Shown here in pieces: positions 27,847-60,608 of a DNA stretch of 64,000 bases. A program made the position numbers and the translations under genes. Position 1 is the first letter of the stretch, and the number at the start of each line of letters is the position of its first letter. The notes below the pieces were generated by a model, which was not told the DNA's origin, searched no databases, and saw nothing but the letters and a program-made list of their open reading frames with translations. Source of the DNA: Megasphaera stantonii (GTDB taxonomy: Bacteria > Bacillota > Negativicutes > Veillonellales > Megasphaeraceae); NCBI RefSeq assembly GCF_003367905.1, contig NZ_CP029462.1, positions 434,001-498,000 of the forward strand, given 5' to 3'.

Positions 27847-29556
27847 TCACCTCGTGTCCCTTATGGCTTTAACCATTGCATGTCTATAATCAATATTTGC
27901 ATATTCTTCCAACACGCTGACTTCCATCCAATGCTCAAGCTGTTCTTCCGTCAGTTCCATGATTTTATCTTCGTCTGCAACATCCATCATTTCCACAAAA
28001 TGACCAACACCCATTGCTAGGGCATCCAGACGGTCATCATGGGGCAGGGCGTTCTTTTCCCTGCACAAACGGGTCATCTGGTACACAAGGGAATACTCGT
28101 ACTTCTTTTCCGTAAATACCTTGTAGTCCGCTTCAATTATCGGACGGTTCACGATGAGCTTATGTCGCATCATGACAGGTTCAAGGGTATCAATAATACG
28201 AGCTTCCTTTTGGCCTGTGGATTTCACTTCTTCGATACCACAGGGATGAATTTTGTTGAATATCGGTGTCATGACTTTGGTAAACATACCATCCCCAAAG
28301 TTGGCTTCGACGATTACTAAGTCCACATCCCAGAATCTAGCACGTGTCGCAAGCTGGGTAAGCGTCAGGTCACTATAACCCTCACTGTATCCGCCGACAT
28401 CCATCAAGAACAGGTATCCGTTCAGATACTTCAAGACCACGTAGGACGTCTCATCAGTGCCACGCCCACTAGGGTCAATCGCCATGATCGTGGTGTCATA
28501 TGGCATCGTGTCGGGACTACGGGATAACTCGCTGTAGAAATAATCCCCCTTCATGGCCGTACAGGGAATATCCTTGATGAGGTTTTCACGTGATTTCGCC
28601 CAAGACCACTTCACGGACGATTCGTACATATCAAGGTCAGTAACGATGAGGTCAGACACTTTCAGAGGATACTTCTCGGCATCCGAGAGCCGTGTGTTGA
28701 GCATAAACTGTAATGCGAACCCAGCCTTGCCATAGGACAACGACCGCTTGAAGATTTCTTCCTCATTGAACCGCAAGGGGTCTGTAGGCTTGCCTTCGAG
28801 CGACGGGTCGTCCTTTAGCTTATTCCAGATAAATGGAGCAAGGTTCTGTCCATAGTGGTCTTCCACCTGATGCAACGCTGGGTACACGACAGGCCAGATA
28901 CGGGTGATGTACCCACGGTCGCCTAAGATGTTATAGAGAGACGATTCCGTCTGTGGTGTCCCAAGGTATATAATGCGTCCATTCGGTTTCAAGATAGCAT
29001 CAAATTCCTTGACGGCTTCCGACAGTTTTTCTCGCTGCGTCTGTGTCGCACTATTCTTCGGCACCTCTACGTCGTCGGCAATCAGGATGTCAGCACGGGT
29101 ACCTGTAATCTGCCCTGTGATACCAATAGACTTTACCGACGGGGAAATGTCGGGAATTGCTCCCCCTACGTCAAAAATGTTCTGTGTGTCCAGCTGCTCC
29201 TTCGACGCTTTCATATCAGCGAGGAAGGGTATGGTGTGAATAATCTGCTTGATAAAGCGAGCATTGGCATCTGCACGGTCGCCAGAAGCCGACACAATTT
29301 CTACCTTTAGCTGCCTATTAAGCCATAAGCACCACACGACAAACGCACAGGTAATGAAGGATTTTGCCACCCCTCGAAAGCCCTCGATGATGATACGGTC
29401 GCTGGGTGGGTGTTGCAGATAGTTTGCAATGTCTACCTGTATGGGTGTAGGTGGCGGCAGGGAAATACTTTTCCATACAATATAAAGGAACGCCCAGAAA
29501 TTCTCCTGAGCGTTCTCAATGTCACGTTTCGTCCATTCTGTTTTTCTTTCTATCAT
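27847..29556 (-). CDS. Phage large terminase subunit, T7 gp19 (DNA maturase B) type
   Basis: A 569-residue packaging ATPase/nuclease. Walker A GFRGVAKS at 59-66, Walker B ILIADD at 157-162, coupling motif YLGTPQT at about 197, nuclease acidic residues in AIDPSGRG (D361), VEANFGDG (E417) and HDDRLDALAMG (D507/D508). Phrases such as GFRGVAKSFITCAFVVW and LSDAEKYPL match T7 gp19 closely from memory, so this is an Autographiviridae-type terminase rather than a siphovirus one. It overlaps the small-subunit gene by ATGA, showing translational coupling. It looks intact. Confidence 0.92.
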   Translation of the reverse strand: MIERKTEWTKRDIENAQENFWAFLYIVWKSISLPPPTPIQVDIANYLQHPPSDRIIIEGFRGVAKSFITCAFVVWCLWLNRQLKVEIVSASGDRADANARFIKQIIHTIPFLADMKASKEQLDTQNIFDVGGAIPDISPSVKSIGITGQITGTRADILIADDVEVPKNSATQTQREKLSEAVKEFDAILKPNGRIIYLGTPQTESSLYNILGDRGYITRIWPVVYPALHQVEDHYGQNLAPFIWNKLKDDPSLEGKPTDPLRFNEEEIFKRSLSYGKAGFALQFMLNTRLSDAEKYPLKVSDLIVTDLDMYESSVKWSWAKSRENLIKDIPCTAMKGDYFYSELSRSPDTMPYDTTIMAIDPSGRGTDETSYVVLKYLNGYLFLMDVGGYSEGYSDLTLTQLATRARFWDVDLVIVEANFGDGMFTKVMTPIFNKIHPCGIEEVKSTGQKEARIIDTLEPVMMRHKLIVNRPIIEADYKVFTEKKYEYSLVYQMTRLCREKNALPHDDRLDALAMGVGHFVEMMDVADEDKIMELTEEQLEHWMEVSVLEEYANIDYRHAMVKAIRDTR

Positions 29557-29786
29557 TCGACTAACCTCATCAAGTCAGGGATATTGGAAACGTCCTGCTG
29601 AATTTCCGTTACCCCTTCGGTTTCAATGGTAGTTAGGAAGTTGTTATCTTTAAGGAACTGCCGTACCTTAGCAAGGAATGCAGGATTTTTGCGCAATTCT
29701 GGGTCTTGAAGACCTTCTAATAGTGCTTGCACCTCTCCCTGAGCTAACTGGTCAAGAAGTTCCTTAGGAAGCTCAAAATTAGCCAT
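29553..29786 (-). CDS. Small terminase subunit, T7 gp18-like
   Basis: A 77-residue acidic protein (MANFELPKELLDQLAQGEVQALLEGLQDPELRKNPAFLAKVRQFLKDNNFLTTIETEGV...). The segment L-x-D-L/Q-x-D-x-E-x-R-x-x-P followed by a helix and LKDNNF resembles the T7 gp18 DNA-packaging protein (LSDDERRSPQLYNAIAKLLDRHKF). Size and position directly in front of the large subunit, with an ATGA overlap, support it. AGAGGTGG precedes the start. Confidence 0.75.
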   Translation of the reverse strand: MANFELPKELLDQLAQGEVQALLEGLQDPELRKNPAFLAKVRQFLKDNNFLTTIETEGVTEIQQDVSNIPDLMRLVE

Positions 29787-29807
29787 TTTACCACCTCTTT
29801 CATAAAA

Positions 29808-29845
29808 ACAAAAAGCTCCCGTAGGAATTTACACCTAAAGGGAGC
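29808..29845 (-). terminator. Terminator between the Cys-rich gene and the small terminase gene
   Basis: Minus-strand GCTCCC (29845-29840) pairs with GGGAGC (29820-29815), extended by CCTA/TAGG pairs, and is followed by TTTTTGTTTTT. It implies either partial read-through or a separate promoter for the terminase genes. Confidence 0.72.
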
Positions 29846-29861
29846 AATACACACAAAAGTC

Positions 29862-30077
29862 CTACTCCTGACTGGGACTTTTTACAATTTTCACGTCATC
29901 CTTATATCTCTTTATGGCTGTATGGGGACTACACCCAAAACGATACGGGAATAAAGGACAACGAACCAAATCACACTTCATTACTTCTTGCGAACTTCCT
30001 GCACAGCAATCTAAACATTTTTCACGAATTGCAGACGCATAACTTACTGTGTCTGGGATATACATTAATCGCTTCAT
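29862..30077 (-). CDS. Small cysteine-rich phage protein
   Basis: A 71-residue protein with the recurrent phage motif AIREKCLDCCAGSSQEVMKCDLVRCPLFPYRFG: four to five cysteines arranged like a zinc knuckle and ending CPLFPYRFG. Such proteins are common near terminase genes of prophages; function unknown. Its ATG overlaps the stop of the coiled-coil gene (ATGA), so the two are translationally coupled. Confidence 0.78.
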   Translation of the reverse strand: MKRLMYIPDTVSYASAIREKCLDCCAGSSQEVMKCDLVRCPLFPYRFGCSPHTAIKRYKDDVKIVKSPSQE

Positions 30078-30397
30078 TTAATACACCACCCGACCAAGGC
30101 CACTCCTGCAAGAGCAGCCCACGTTTTATTCTGCCGTTCTTTGATCATCAGCTCGTGTTCCATTGATTCCATTTCGGTCTGCAATGTCGTTAAGGATTTC
30201 TTCAATTCGGTCAAATCGCTCTTTGCTGTCGTCAATGAGGTCTGTGCGTTCGTCAAGGCTTCCTTGCAATTCTCCAACTGAATCCTCAGCTCCGCTAACT
30301 TCGATTTGTCCTCGGTCGAGAGCTGCTCCAATCTCGTCAAGTTTTGCTCCAACACTGTCAGCTCCCATTTCAATTCGTTGTACTGTGTCACTGACAT
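30074..30397 (-). CDS. Coiled-coil protein with C-terminal hydrophobic segment (phage island)
   Basis: A 107-residue frame from the ATG at 30397 (a TTG at 30484 would extend it to 136). A long heptad-type coiled coil (YNELKWELTVLEQNL...TTLQTEMESMEHEL) is followed by a hydrophobic tail (WAALAGVALVGWCIK). It is coupled by ATGA to the Cys-rich gene, which supports it being translated. A second frame (30126-30482) overlaps it almost completely. The layout recalls phage lysis accessory proteins, but no family match is claimed. Confidence 0.55.
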   Translation of the reverse strand: MSVTQYNELKWELTVLEQNLTRLEQLSTEDKSKLAELRIQLENCKEALTNAQTSLTTAKSDLTELKKSLTTLQTEMESMEHELMIKERQNKTWAALAGVALVGWCIK

Positions 30398-30482
30398 GGT
30401 TATCGTCTGGGTGGTCGTGCTGGGAGTAGAGGTATACTCCGCCCCCAATGACAACGACGGCCAGCGGATACTTAACGCGCAC
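30126..30482 (-). CDS. Overlapping frame with N-terminal membrane helix and coiled coil (spanin-like?)
   Basis: A 118-residue frame starting at GTG 30482 and offset by one frame from the coiled-coil gene. It begins MRVKYPLAVVVIGGGVYLYS, an N-terminal membrane anchor, then an acidic coiled coil to the end (SVGELQGSLDERTDLIDDSKERFDRIEEILNDIADRNG). This is the topology of an inner-membrane spanin (Rz), and T7 places its spanin genes between the terminase genes. No good ribosome site is visible, and coiled coils can throw false coil-like frames, so it may be a shadow. Confidence 0.4.
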   Translation of the reverse strand: MRVKYPLAVVVIGGGVYLYSQHDHPDDNHVSDTVQRIEMGADSVGAKLDEIGAALDRGQIEVSGAEDSVGELQGSLDERTDLIDDSKERFDRIEEILNDIADRNGINGTRADDQRTAE

Positions 30483-30574
30483 AATTACAAAATATGTACG
30501 AAAAAAAGAACATCCAGAAACACATGACGAAAGAGAATCCTTAACAGAACTGTACCGAAAAATAGATAAAAAAT

Positions 30575-30605
30575 AGCCTATCTTAATTGATAGGCTTTTC
30601 TTTTT
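30575..30605. terminator. Bidirectional hairpin terminator in the island
   Basis: AGCCTATC (30575-30582) pairs with GATAGGCT (30589-30596). T-rich tracts follow on both strands: TTTTCTTTTT on plus and ATTTTTTATC on minus. On the minus strand it lies just after the stop of the 30604-31137 gene. Confidence 0.75.
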
Positions 30606-31137
30606 ATTTATGTTCTGTTATGTCTTTAAGAATATATTGTACAATAGGATATTCTTTTTTTAATGTAATTGGCCCTCTTTTACCTTGTGCGCCACTTTGT
30701 ACTAAATCAGTAATAATTCGCCCCTGCAATAAAACAGGTTTAGTATGTGTATTATAACTAGGTATGGAAAATTTTTCTGTACCAAAACAATATATAGGAA
30801 AGGAATATACATAGCTATTATCTTCTAAAAACATATATACATCGTAAATTCTCATTTTCATTTTTTCATTTATAGGGTGCGTAAACTCGTTAGGTATTTT
30901 AGATATTAAGAGGATACATCGGTATGAATTAGGTGATCCTTCAATCGCTTCAAAATTACGTGTATCTACACCGCTATTATAAGGGCAATTATAAGCGATT
31001 ATATTATACCTTGCGTCTTTTCCTGCTGCTAGTGTTATAATATCATTTATAACTATAGGTGTTTTATATGCATAACTATTTAAAGGGATAGTAACAAAAA
31101 GCATAAATAAAGTAATACAATATAAAAATTTACGCAT
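30604..31137 (-). CDS. Exported orphan protein of the island
   Basis: A 177-residue protein I do not recognise. The ATG at 31137 follows AGAGG; the N-terminus MRKFLYCITLFMLFVTIPLNSYAYK is a Sec signal peptide. The mature part is beta-rich and polar with two Cys (YNCPYNSG, RCILLISK) and a late KRGPITLKKEYPIVQYILKD. Very AT-rich compared with the host. It has its own promoter and terminator, so it is an independent unit, a candidate cargo gene; no function can be given. Confidence 0.65.
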   Translation of the reverse strand: MRKFLYCITLFMLFVTIPLNSYAYKTPIVINDIITLAAGKDARYNIIAYNCPYNSGVDTRNFEAIEGSPNSYRCILLISKIPNEFTHPINEKMKMRIYDVYMFLEDNSYVYSFPIYCFGTEKFSIPSYNTHTKPVLLQGRIITDLVQSGAQGKRGPITLKKEYPIVQYILKDITEHK

Positions 31138-31686
31138 AATAAATAACCTCTTTTTCACATGATGATACTTACATTTTACCGCATGTTTCCTAGCATTGTC
31201 TACTGGTTTTATATGCGTTCCTTTCGTACAGATGTTTTATAACAATTAAATAAACGTTTAATCGTCTTTTAGCCACCACACTACCATACCAGTCAAAACG
31301 TATAGATGCCCCTAGTCACAAACAGCACCATATTACTCCACTATCGCAAGCCTATAGATACACACATTTTCCCACGTCTCCACGTGTACCATTTATTAAA
31401 CGCATTAGACACAAGCAGGGCGCTTGATGTACAATAAGCACACAATAAGCGCCACAACAGCCATTACGGCGCTACAATATGCGCATAATGATATATCAAA
31501 AGATTATGGCATATGTAGCTTGATGTATCGTATGGTATGCAAAATGTTCGCAATGAGTGACATATGGTCAGCTGGCAGTTAATATGATTCAATGCAGGCA
31601 CCCCTACGGGGGAACACGCACGAATCCAATTCCATATATACCCACTCACAAATTTTTTAAAATTTTCAACTTAGGATGGTGATAAC
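31138..31686. other. Intergenic region between the exported orphan and the integrase
   Basis: About 550 bp without a convincing gene. It holds the orphan promoter at its left, a GCTTGATGTA word present twice (near 31423 and 31518), a GCGCTT/AAGCGC pair and a small CCCCTACGGGG hairpin (31601-31611) near the integrase. A 61-codon minus frame (31464-31649) is cysteine/histidine-rich and looks like noise. Confidence 0.5.
31173..31202 (-). promoter_or_regulatory. Promoter of the exported orphan gene
   Basis: Minus-strand TAGACA (31197-31202), 18 bp, TAAAAT (31173-31178). Confidence 0.5.
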
Positions 31687-32805
31687 ATGGCAACTAAAAG
31701 ACGGAACAAAGGTGAAGGCAGCATCACACAACTATCCAATGGAAAATACAAGATGACAATTACCATTGGAAAAGGATTAGATGGTAAACAGAAACGTAAA
31801 TCCATCACCGCAGCTACGAAAAAGGAACTATTTGATAAAGCAGCTTATGTAAAGGCGCAATATGGGGTGATGACACAAGCAGAAATACAAGCTCAGCTTA
31901 GCACCGAAACATATCGTGAGTTCTCAAAAAAGATGGCAGCATTACAAGAAGCTGGTCTGACGGAGAACACAAAGAACACCTACAATAATATAGACGAGAA
32001 ATACCTATTACCCCGTCTAGGAGACAGCAGGATGAAGGACATAACACCTCACATGTGCGAAACTCTTATCTGTGATTTATTATGGCAAAATAAGCTTTCT
32101 GGATCTACTTTACGAGGCATAAAGTCCCGAATGAGCTATATGTTTAAACAAGCAGTAAAACGAGACATACTTGCTGTTAACCCACTAGATAAAACAGACA
32201 TAACGTTGCCCCCTAAAAATAGGAAGGCACTTATGACCTTGCCTACAGTAGAAAAGATGCAGGAATTGTTGACATATATGAAAGAAAAAAGACCAAACTT
32301 ATACCCCATGGTGTACACAGCCATCTACACAGGAATGCGTAGAGGTGAGCTGTTAGGGCTTAAATGGCCTTGTGTAGATTTCGATAAAAAGACTATTACG
32401 ATCAATAATCAAATCACGGATAGAGGGAATAGCGATGCTCCTTTAAAAACAGAAACAAGCTATCGGACAATATATGTCAGCGATAAGCTATTAGCGGTAT
32501 TGAAAGATGTTCCACACAAATCCCAGTACGTGTTCACCTCACCTGCTACAGGTACACACTATTCTAGGGGTGTCACTACAAATCTAAAAAATATCTTTAG
32601 AGAGGTAAATATGCCTGAACACTTCTCCATGCACGACTTGCGCCATTTTCATGCGACACAGCTAATTATGCATAATGCAAATATTAAAGTTGTAAGTCGG
32701 CGACTGGGACACAAGGATATTAAAGTGACACTCGACCTATATTTCAACTTCATGCCATCTATGGATGAAGAAGCTAGTCGCATTATGGACACCATCATAG
32801 ACTAA
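31687..32805 (+). CDS. Tyrosine recombinase / phage integrase
   Basis: A 372-residue integrase. Residues 1-60 form an arm-binding domain (GEGSITQLSNGKYKMTITIGKGLDGKQKRKSI); about 75-165 is the SAM-like core-binding domain; the catalytic domain has R218 (TGMRRGEL), a candidate Lys near 254, H316-x-x-R319 (HDLRH), H342 (LGHKDI) and the nucleophile Y352 (LDLYF). All catalytic residues are present. AGGATGG lies upstream. Located next to the right attachment repeat and divergent from the terminase genes. Confidence 0.92.
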   Translation: MATKRRNKGEGSITQLSNGKYKMTITIGKGLDGKQKRKSITAATKKELFDKAAYVKAQYGVMTQAEIQAQLSTETYREFSKKMAALQEAGLTENTKNTYNNIDEKYLLPRLGDSRMKDITPHMCETLICDLLWQNKLSGSTLRGIKSRMSYMFKQAVKRDILAVNPLDKTDITLPPKNRKALMTLPTVEKMQELLTYMKEKRPNLYPMVYTAIYTGMRRGELLGLKWPCVDFDKKTITINNQITDRGNSDAPLKTETSYRTIYVSDKLLAVLKDVPHKSQYVFTSPATGTHYSRGVTTNLKNIFREVNMPEHFSMHDLRHFHATQLIMHNANIKVVSRRLGHKDIKVTLDLYFNFMPSMDEEASRIMDTIID

Positions 32806-34235: not shown

Positions 34236-34760
34236 TTAGAGTTCCGGTTCAATCAAGCCGTATTTGCCGTGTTTCCGTTTGTATACGACGCTGATCGTAT
34301 CGGTCTTGGAGTTGAGGAATACGAAGAAGTCGTGGCCTACGAGGTTCATCTGCAAAATAGCTTCTTCGACGTCCATCGGGCGGGCGGCAAATTTCTTCGT
34401 TCTGGCGATTTCAAAGGTTTCTTCCGGTTCCGCCGGCCCTTCTACCAAGGCGGCGTTGAAGGACGAGCCCTTCATGCGGCGAGCCAATTTCGTTTTATAT
34501 TTATGGATTTGGCGAACCATCTTGTCGTATACCAAATCGATAGCGGCATACATATCGTCGTTCGCTTCGACGCCGCGGAGGACGACGCCGTCTACTTTCA
34601 AGGTAATTTCTGCAATCTTACGGTCTTTTTCAACGGAAAGCATCGCTTGTACGTTTACTTCGTTGTCGAAATATTTCGTCACTTTCTTTTCGCGTTTCAA
34701 TACATAGTCTTTCAGAGCTTGCGTAATTTCTAAGTTCTTGCCTCTAACAGTTGTTGCCAT
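34236..34760 (-). CDS. hpf: Ribosome hibernation promoting factor, long form
   Basis: A 174-residue long HPF. The N-terminal domain (about 1-100: VRGKNLEITQALKDYVLKREKKVTKYFDNEVNVQAMLSVEKDRKIAEITLKVDG) binds the 30S subunit at the decoding region; the C-terminal domain (about 120-174: RTKKFAARPMDVEEAILQMNLVGHDFFVFLNSKTDTISVVYKRKHGKYGLIEPEL) dimerises ribosomes into 100S particles in stationary phase. Single gene unit with a terminator after it. Confidence 0.93.
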   Translation of the reverse strand: MATTVRGKNLEITQALKDYVLKREKKVTKYFDNEVNVQAMLSVEKDRKIAEITLKVDGVVLRGVEANDDMYAAIDLVYDKMVRQIHKYKTKLARRMKGSSFNAALVEGPAEPEETFEIARTKKFAARPMDVEEAILQMNLVGHDFFVFLNSKTDTISVVYKRKHGKYGLIEPEL

Positions 34761-58575: not shown

Positions 58576-59025
58576 TTAAAGCATGCCAATGATATAAAAA
58601 GAAGACCGTCCCTTGACGACGACTGCACCCTGTTCGTTAAAACATTCGCATTCGACGACGATCGTCTTGCCGCCGTGATGAACGACCTGGCCGACGCCGT
58701 TCAGGCTTTCGCCGGAATTGACGCGGCGGATATAATTCATATTAATCTCCAGCGTCGTAACCTTGTAGCCCAGCGTACGGCTCGCCATACCCATCAGGGT
58801 ATCGCAGAACGCAGCCAAAACGCCGCCCGAGGCGATGCCCCGGTAATTGCATAGATTCGGCGTAATTTCAAATTTAAGACGCACCCAACCTTCGGCGAAA
58901 TCTTCGATCTTGCAGGGAAGATTTTTAAAATAGTGCTTCGGGTCCCGCATATCTGAATAAATGCGGCTAAGCCGTCTCTGCAGCTCTGCGTTCACATCTA
59001 CATCTATGGGTTTATCAGCGGTCAT
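58576..59025 (-). CDS. PaaI-type hotdog thioesterase
   Basis: A 149-residue hotdog protein (NLCNYRGIASGGVLAAFCDTLMGMASRTLGYKVTTLEINMNYIRRVNSGESLNGVGQVVHHGGKTIVVECECFNEQG), with the GG-x-x-x-AFCDTLMGMA helix and the VVHHGGKTIVVECE strand of PaaI thioesterases. ATG at 59025 is used because GGAG lies close upstream. Overlaps the preceding hotdog gene by 11 bp, so the pair is translated in coupled fashion. Confidence 0.85.
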   Translation of the reverse strand: MTADKPIDVDVNAELQRRLSRIYSDMRDPKHYFKNLPCKIEDFAEGWVRLKFEITPNLCNYRGIASGGVLAAFCDTLMGMASRTLGYKVTTLEINMNYIRRVNSGESLNGVGQVVHHGGKTIVVECECFNEQGAVVVKGRSSFYIIGML

Positions 59026-59461
59026 GTCCCTCTCCACCTCCAAACGCATAGGGTCCGGTTACAAAAAACGTGCCCTTTCCATGAGCTAAATACCGGTCGT
59101 TGTTGTCATACAGGTCGCACAAGGCAACCATCGTCGTATGGCCGTTGTGAATGACCCGCGTTTCAGCGCGGATGACCGTATTGGAAAAAGCAGGACGAAG
59201 AAAATTCATGGACAAATCCAACGTGAGCACGGCTTTTCCATACACGGCGCAGGCCGTTTCCATCGCGGAAGCCGACATGGAATACAGGACGCCGCCGTAC
59301 AAGGTGCCGTTGGGATTATCCCATTTCGTCCCTTTGTTTTGAAACTCTAACACCGTCAGTTGTTTATCTGCTGCAATGACGTGGAAATCCATAAACTGAT
59401 CGAAAGGATTTCTCTGCAATTCGTCATCCAAGGCCTGTACATCAGCCTCCATCGACGCCAT
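59015..59461 (-). CDS. PaaI-type hotdog thioesterase
   Basis: A 148-residue hotdog protein paralogous to the next gene (NPNGTLYGGVLYSMSASAMETACAVYGKAVLTLDLSMNFLRPAFSNTVIRAETRVIHNGHTTMVALCDLYDNNDRYLAHGKGTFFVTG). AAAGGAG supports the start. The family hydrolyses aryl- or short-acyl-CoA. With the neighbouring dehydrogenase it probably acts in acyl-CoA turnover. Confidence 0.85.
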   Translation of the reverse strand: MASMEADVQALDDELQRNPFDQFMDFHVIAADKQLTVLEFQNKGTKWDNPNGTLYGGVLYSMSASAMETACAVYGKAVLTLDLSMNFLRPAFSNTVIRAETRVIHNGHTTMVALCDLYDNNDRYLAHGKGTFFVTGPYAFGGGEGHDR

Positions 59462-59561: not shown

Positions 59562-59590
59562 AAAAAAAGCTGTGCGCAATGCACAGCTTT
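59562..59590 (-). terminator. Terminator of the structured RNA
   Basis: AAAGCTGTGC (59567-59576 complement) pairs with GCACAGCTTT (59581-59590), followed by TTTTT on the minus strand. Confidence 0.8.
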
Positions 59591-59793
59591 GCAACATGCC
59601 TGACCTGGTCTTTACCCCCACACTCGCCTGCTGGAAGGTTCGCTCATAGATGTGTATCCCCCACTACTACTTCTCTCGCCGTTTCGCGGCAGGTCTTACT
59701 TCTAGGCCGCACTATGATCAGAGCTGCTTTGAGCTCCTTACGTGGATCGCTTCGCCTGCGACTGGCATCGACTTTCAACCACAGCGCATGTTA
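59562..59793 (-). ncRNA. Structured noncoding RNA, 6S-RNA-like (candidate)
   Basis: A transcription unit of about 230 nt without an ORF. It has a near-perfect promoter (TTGACA-18-TATAAT) and a terminator. The 5' end (AACATGC...CTG..TGGT) pairs with the 3' end (ACCA..CAG..GCATGTT) as a closing stem, and AAGGAGCTC pairs with GAGCGAACCTT further in, leaving a large internal loop. A rod with central bubble is the layout of 6S RNA (SsrS), which mimics an open promoter to bind RNA polymerase. The identity is an inference from fold and context; SRP, RNase P and tmRNA signatures are absent. Confidence 0.6.
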
Positions 59794-59799
59794 TTTCAT

Positions 59800-59829
59800 A
59801 TTATACGGAACGGAGCCGTTCCTTGTCAA
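59800..59829 (-). promoter_or_regulatory. Consensus promoter of the structured RNA
   Basis: Minus-strand TTGACA (59824-59829), 18 bp, TATAAT (59800-59805). Both hexamers are perfect. Confidence 0.82.
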
Positions 59830-59914: not shown

Positions 59915-60496
59915 TTAGAATTTGTAGCCCATACCGACCTGCCAGCCTTCTACGTCATCATCGTAGTTATCCACGTCTACGCTGGCGCTGCGGTATTTTA
60001 CATGAGCGTCCCAGCTCGACGTAATATCGTAGCCGACGCCGATTTCATAAGAATTAACGTCATCGCCGACGCCGACAGAAGCAAAGCCCTGCAGGCGGTC
60101 TGTAAGAGGCAGCTGGCCGCGGAGACCGAACTGATAACCATACGAATTCTTACCCGAATGCCACGTATCCGTGTCGACATAGGAGCCGCCGCCATAAATG
60201 GATAAATATGGCGCCAGGCGATAGTTGCCAACTACATAATGTTCGTTGATCTTATTTCCGTTATCGCCTTTCGTATAGTTATTAATATATTGAATATCCC
60301 ATTTATCATTAAGGACATAGGTCAAATCGCCGCCGACAAAACGGCTTTCCGCACTGCGGTCGCCTTCTTCCTGATCAAACCCGAAGTTGACATTTGCTTT
60401 AAAATCACCAGCCTGAGGATTTCGTATAGGTGCAGCAAAAGAAACGGCACTAACCGAAACGAGGGCCGCTAATACGCTGGCCAACACTATCTTTTT
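59915..60496 (-). CDS. Outer-membrane beta-barrel protein
   Basis: A 193-residue protein starting at GTG 60496, preceded by GGAGG. Signal peptide MKKIVLASVLAALVSVSAVSFAAP. The mature protein is a series of alternating amphipathic strands (FKANVNFGFDQ; RFVGGDLTYVLNDKWDIQYINNYT; HYVVGNYRLAPYLSIYGGGSYVD; QFGLRGQLPLTDRLQGFASVGVGDD; YEIGVGYDITSSWDAHVKYRSAS) ending in a terminal Phe (GWQVGMGYKF), the BAM recognition feature. About eight to ten strands. It fits a Negativicutes outer-membrane protein. Confidence 0.83.
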   Translation of the reverse strand, partial: KKIVLASVLAALVSVSAVSFAAPIRNPQAGDFKANVNFGFDQEEGDRSAESRFVGGDLTYVLNDKWDIQYINNYTKGDNGNKINEHYVVGNYRLAPYLSIYGGGSYVDTDTWHSGKNSYGYQFGLRGQLPLTDRLQGFASVGVGDDVNSYEIGVGYDITSSWDAHVKYRSASVDVDNYDDDVEGWQVGMGYKF

Positions 60497-60608
60497 CACG
60501 GGAAACACCTCCATCGTGTAATCATGCACTACTTATTTCATCATATGTCATATTACTTACATTATACTCTATTTGCCGCGAAAAGGCAAAAATAAGAAAG
60601 AGAAATTC

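Follow-up and report, generated by a model that had tools for sequence, protein, structure and literature searches.

The minus-strand RNA gene at 59562-59829 is the Megasphaera copy of a known RNA family, the raiA motif RNA (ModT, Rfam RF03072), and it very probably forms its own transcription unit whose pseudoknotted product acts in trans to time the change from growth to stationary phase. The window in which it lies is the whole stretch of 64,000 bases that was analysed, and positions given without a contig refer to it. Across its order, Veillonellales, the RNA persists in the absence of Spo0A and, in most genomes, of c-di-GMP synthases. In what follows, f1 to f34 are codes for families within a sample of the class, f1 being the family of this genome, and G and L numbers denote genomes and loci.

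An Rfam covariance-model search placed a complete raiA motif RNA at 59591-59794 on the minus strand, with 184.1 bits against a gathering score of 101.3. The match covers the full length of the model (positions 1-209), and the RNA so modelled is 204 nt long. Model position 11 is missing from this copy, as it is from most f1 sequences aligned. The locus is the sole Rfam match at gathering score within the window and the only match to RF03072 in the whole genome. From the inferred start to the terminator, the transcript would measure about 230 nt, the length put forward in the original prediction. The claim that the region carries no ORF also stands for the RNA's own strand, on which no ORF of at least 60 aa overlaps it; on the opposite strand there are two overlapping mechanical ORFs, of 95 and 124 aa. 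The possibility of a new RNA family, which had been raised as well, gives way to the match with the known family RF03072.

The original prediction had suggested 6S RNA, an open-promoter mimic that binds RNA polymerase. The locus does resemble 6S RNA (RF00013) in its size of about 200-230 nt, its end-to-end pairing, its strong promoter and its housekeeping character. However, the covariance-model search for RF00013 gave no match here at E values up to 10, and the genome has a full-length 6S gene of its own elsewhere (G000:C1:1878920-1879097, 96.3 bits); a 6S match was found in each of the 20 genomes searched, that of Megasphaera included. The prediction had itself named an Rfam match to another class as the result that refutes 6S, and the Rfam/Infernal search, once run, returned such a match. 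With RF03072 at 184.1 bits, no 6S match at the locus and a 6S gene elsewhere, the 6S identity is refuted, and it is virtually certain that this RNA is something else.

The assignment to the raiA motif is accompanied by strong comparative support for the conserved helices. In an alignment of 56 distinct raiA RNA sequences of the order, onto which the structure was projected from the Rfam alignment of the Megasphaera copy with two P3 pairs added by hand, paired cells amount to 89.3%, against 80.5% in shuffles. Pairing drops to 33-45% when the partner strand is slid, although a structure taken from a single aligned sequence is in itself biased towards the unslid arrangement. The covariation score is 0.301 against 0.131 after shuffling, and none of 500 shuffles reached it; pairs with changes on both sides number 24 against a shuffled mean of 20.2, a value as high being found in 7 of 500 shuffles. 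The closing helix P1 (alignment helix 1) pairs the RNA's first nucleotides with its last through a 5' arm at 59782-59794 (columns 2-15) and a 3' arm at 59591-59602 (columns 211-222), both on the minus strand, and shows two-sided changes in relatives; the end-to-end pairing seen originally was thus correctly read. The 7-pair helix pk-1 (alignment helix 5, named as in PMC11751092) would connect minus-strand positions 59757-59763 in the P3 loop with 59705-59711 in the pk-Loop. Six of its seven pairs are standard in this copy, the seventh being an A-C mismatch, and 96.2% of its cells are paired in relatives; these pairs are mostly invariant, so that covariation says little on this helix. Helix 6 is the weakest, with 67.5% of cells paired and one projected pair standard in 0 of 56 sequences.

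The fold described for the family is compact and has two pseudoknots, as set out in PMC11751092. The large internal bubble of the original prediction does not fit it. A mostly unpaired middle does appear in the free-energy centroid, and this folding of the RNA strand is no better than that of shuffles (z 0.05). Free-energy folding was therefore set aside as structural support, having provided none; the opposite strand, taken over all of the reported stretch, gave the better folding (z -2.14).

Directly upstream of the RNA lies a sigma-70-type promoter that matches the consensus at 12 of 12 positions, with a -35 hexamer TTGACA at 59824-59829 (6/6), a spacer of 18 and a -10 hexamer TATAAT at 59800-59805 (6/6), all on the minus strand; transcription would start near 59793. 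Directly downstream, on the same strand, an intrinsic terminator occupies 59562-59590, with a 10-pair stem (59590-59566), a loop of 5 and a T run to about 59562. Both elements had been recognized originally, and the description of a strongly promoted, structured, housekeeping-type RNA was right as far as the sequence goes. Among 1067 random positions in loci of this order, 4 have a site scoring 11/12 or better. Of the order's 60 loci with the RNA, 56 carry a promoter of 10/12 or better that abuts it, compared with 12 of 1067 random positions, and a strict scan found a terminator after the RNA in 40 of 60 loci, compared with 39 of 1067. By family, promoter and terminator were found in 13/17 and 12/17 loci of f1, in 11/11 and 0/11 of f2, in 4/4 and 0/4 of f3, and in 28/28 and 28/28 of f4. 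Four loci of the genus (G004, G005, G008 and G014) lack a promoter of 10/12. We infer that the RNA is here independently transcribed from a vegetative promoter, as has been described for clostridial raiA RNA in the part of PMC11706538 consulted.

Spo0A-bearing genomes of the class sample show another layout. A promoter of at least 10/12 directly abuts the RNA in 0 of the 43 loci examined, and the scores in themselves are no higher than expected by chance: sites of at least 10/12 were found in 6/43 against 48/389 random stretches, and sites of at least 11/12 in 0/43 against 22/389. A site with a TTGC-type -35 is the best one within 200 nt in 26 of the 43, its -10 ending 14-18 nt (about 16) upstream of the start of the Rfam model, and the same layout is visible by eye in most of the remaining loci. 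It is this constant position, not the score, that speaks for a TTGC-type promoter in the Spo0A-bearing loci. The notion that these loci have no promoter of their own, such that the Megasphaera promoter was a later gain, was dropped given the TTGC-type site at constant offset.

The genes around the RNA bear on whether it acts in cis or in trans. Neighbours were surveyed by tblastn in flanks of 0.05 to 4.8 kb at 128 loci, made up of all 60 RNA-bearing loci of the order and 68 of the 88 other RNA-bearing ones of the class sample. The Megasphaera RNA adjoins an outer-membrane beta-barrel gene (59915-60529), as had been noticed originally, and on its other side lie two tandem 4HBT thioesterase genes (58576-59461, minus strand), then an acyl-CoA dehydrogenase gene and pheS-pheT. 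With this pheT as query, 7 loci were matched, 6 of which come from Megasphaera (Veillonellales, Negativicutes) with 76-81% identity, and the genus was read from these relatives. The tandem thioesterases are about 28% identical over 88 aa. Both thioesterase genes and the acyl-CoA dehydrogenase gene follow the RNA in 17 of 17 f1 loci. The outer-membrane gene is beside it in 11 of the 17, one of the other six having fewer than 300 bases upstream, and is not a constant neighbour in this family. In a number of Spo0A-bearing families (f5, f9, f17 and f20), thioesterase genes are found as well, immediately upstream of the RNA.

Frequent neighbours of raiA RNA are comFC and the raiA gene, given as 74% and 66% and as not defining the family in the part of PMC11706538 consulted. 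The direct neighbours here are other genes. The ribosome hibernation factor gene raiA/hpf, the namesake of the motif and the genome's one S30AE match (HPF/RaiA, with both S30AE domains), lies at 34236-34760 on the minus strand, 25 kb from the RNA, and a ComF-like gene lies about 1.74 Mb away along the contig. The hibernation factor gene is near the integrase side of a prophage part or remains at 27847-32805, which carries a gene for a large terminase subunit (phrog_38, 4e-117) at 27847-29556 and an integrase gene (phrog_1) at 31687-32805. Flanking genes differ between families. The gene cysS is downstream of the RNA in 11/11 loci of f2, and f3 combines cysS downstream with a divergent HD-type gene upstream (4/4); a divergent HD-type gene is also upstream in 27/28 loci of f4 and in all 18 examined of f18, where 25 have the RNA. 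Among Spo0A-bearing genomes, a small zinc-finger gene (PF13451) is downstream in 39 of 43 loci examined (51 have the RNA), the RNA being 34-118 nt before the aligned part of the gene. The distance of the raiA protein gene and this variation of neighbours argue against a cis role in Megasphaera.

Rfam nevertheless labels RF03072 as cis-regulatory, riboswitch, and the RNA could in principle be a leader that controls the downstream thioesterase genes. The first of these is on the same strand, about 130 nt downstream, and the constancy of both thioesterases in f1 and the close spacing to the zinc-finger gene in Spo0A-bearing loci would suit such a leader. Against it, an intrinsic terminator separates the RNA from the gene here and is present in 12 of the 17 f1 loci, the downstream genes of other families vary (cysS, SBP_bac_3, zf_Tbcl), and trans complementation has been reported in clostridia (PMC11706538, in the part consulted). 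The terminator and the varied neighbours make a riboswitch for the thioesterases very unlikely. The PF13451 zinc-finger protein was considered as a partner of the RNA and rejected, since it has no match in the Megasphaera genome and is present in 27 genomes of f14, a family lacking the RNA. Those 27 genomes lack raiA RNA but retain a member of the zinc-finger family that lies next to it where Spo0A is present.

Apart from its genomic place, with an outer-membrane protein gene on one side and thioesterase genes on the other, and its missing model position, the Megasphaera copy agrees with raiA motif RNA / ModT in its full-length match above the gathering score, its helices with covariation, pk-1, a vegetative-type promoter predicted from the sequence, and its character as a stand-alone gene. 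A further difference concerns the host, whose genome has neither a Spo0A nor a GGDEF match.

The raiA RNA was found in 60 of 61 genomes of the order, with one match each, and in all 53 of the near-complete ones. A search for Spo0A_C found a match in none of the 60 genomes of the order searched; among 14 control genomes, Bacillus subtilis alone was positive. A GGDEF match was found in 13 of 61 genomes (one below cut-off) and in 10 of the 53 near-complete genomes, and none was found in the Megasphaera genome; the control gave 8 positives in 14 genomes, and absence of GGDEF here means absence of a match to one Pfam model. Thus 43 of 53 near-complete genomes, that of Megasphaera among them, keep the RNA without a GGDEF match, and it is from these counts and the lack of Spo0A that the order is seen to keep the RNA without Spo0A and, for the most part, without c-di-GMP synthases. 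In the sample of 150 genomes of the class, the RNA was found in 116 (113 over cut-off) and Spo0A in 56; comparing the lists by hand, 51 of the 56 Spo0A-bearing genomes (49 over cut-off) and 65 of the 94 others have the RNA. The 34 class genomes in which it was not found belong mostly to f14 (at least 27 of 34), indicating that its role can be lost.

In C. difficile, raiA RNA has been tied to the growth transition, sporulation, toxin level and c-di-GMP, and in C. acetobutylicum to sporulation and aggregation (PMC11706538, in the part consulted). According to the same part, the sporulation defect in C. difficile runs through c-di-GMP, so that ModT might act through this signal in Megasphaera too. 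A one-domain HD-GYP-type gene is indeed kept here, and HD_5 matches are present in 56 of 61 genomes of the order. However, the 43 near-complete genomes without a GGDEF match, this one included, all keep the RNA, and the lysine after HD..G in the HDxxGK motif is leucine in 32/32 copies of f3 and f4 and is present in 1/16 of f18 and 1/3 of f1 among those aligned. A route through c-di-GMP is therefore unlikely in this organism.

The HD-type gene suggests a different idea, namely that the RNA has as its partner a conserved HD-GYP-type protein of one domain, which has given up its part in c-di-GMP turnover. The HD-GYP domain is typical of c-di-GMP phosphodiesterases. The gene is divergent from the RNA in 31 of 32 f3 and f4 loci and 18 of 18 f18 loci examined. 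Of these families, the GGDEF search covered f3 and f4 and found no match in 31 of their 32 genomes. The Megasphaera genome has one HD_5 match, far from the RNA, whose product is 62-69.5% identical to most f4 copies, 56.5-58% to six f4 copies, 47-57% to f3 copies and 50-58% to f18 copies; the gene is read as a putative ortholog of the RNA-adjacent gene of these families. The best NCBIfam match of its product is a c-di-GMP phosphodiesterase-type family, below cut-off. In every aligned copy of f3 (4), f4 (28) and f18 (16), the HD and HHE...DG.G.P motifs retain their histidines and aspartates; of two f2 copies, one no longer has the HD aspartate.

In Megasphaera, the HD-type gene is convergent with the ComF-like gene at about 2.234 Mb, 1.74 Mb from the RNA; the ComF-like protein matches TIGR00201 (E 3e-28) below the model cut-off. 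This convergent pair (L164:2149-3402) thus stands in a genome without a GGDEF match, and in its one-domain HD-GYP-type gene leucine replaces the lysine after HD..G. A ComF-like homolog is upstream of the RNA in 4/4 f3, 23/28 f4 and 1/18 f18 loci; it was found in 0/43 Spo0A-bearing and 0/17 f1 loci, misses that say little given a diverged query and short flanks. Since the HD-GYP gene stays beside the ComF-like gene even when separated from the RNA, its link may be with comFC, and the HD-GYP lead is given little weight. Near-complete genomes that have the RNA but gave no HD_5 match are G022, G034 and G038, and in G028 the sole match is below cut-off. G103, a genome lacking the RNA of which 77% was read, gives an HD-type match at 27-38% identity; of six control proteins tried there, hpf, pheS, pheT and hepA were found and ACAD and thioB were not. 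The ComF-like neighbour away from the RNA, the RNA-bearing genomes without HD_5 and the match in G103 leave the partnership a low probability and make it distinctly unlikely. Our literature search found no paper pairing the raiA motif with HD-GYP or with Veillonella; the synteny study of Soares et al. (2024, PNAS) lay outside this search, and the link is not claimed to be unpublished.

The preferred reading remains an independently transcribed raiA RNA acting in trans. In clostridia, raiA RNA is abundant, acts in trans and has a growth-phase phenotype (PMC11706538, in the part consulted), and by analogy the Megasphaera copy would do the same as clostridial ModT in its abundance, trans action and growth-phase role. 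The vegetative sigma-70-type promoter, recognized by its hexamers, would start the transcript, which would adopt the family's compact fold with its pseudoknots and end at the terminator some 230 nt later. As in clostridia, the product is most likely a stable, structured RNA that is present in abundance and acts in trans, and it would decide when growth gives way to stationary phase. At the molecular level, it may be a ribozyme, a scaffold of an RNP or a ligand-binding RNA; the distribution does not bear on this mechanism.

The distribution agrees with a more general core role of raiA RNA. The authors of the ModT study argued that non-spore-formers already point to such a role (PMC11706538, in the part consulted), and the GGDEF result adds to this argument and extends it to c-di-GMP. 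The kind of RNA is already known; the extra interest lies in a host with no match to the sporulation switch or to the signal-making enzymes linked to raiA RNA elsewhere. An order in which every near-complete genome has the RNA, none searched has a Spo0A match and most near-complete ones have no GGDEF match offers a background that separates the core role from sporulation and c-di-GMP, and on this ground the core job of raiA RNA would need neither Spo0A-driven sporulation nor GGDEF-made c-di-GMP.
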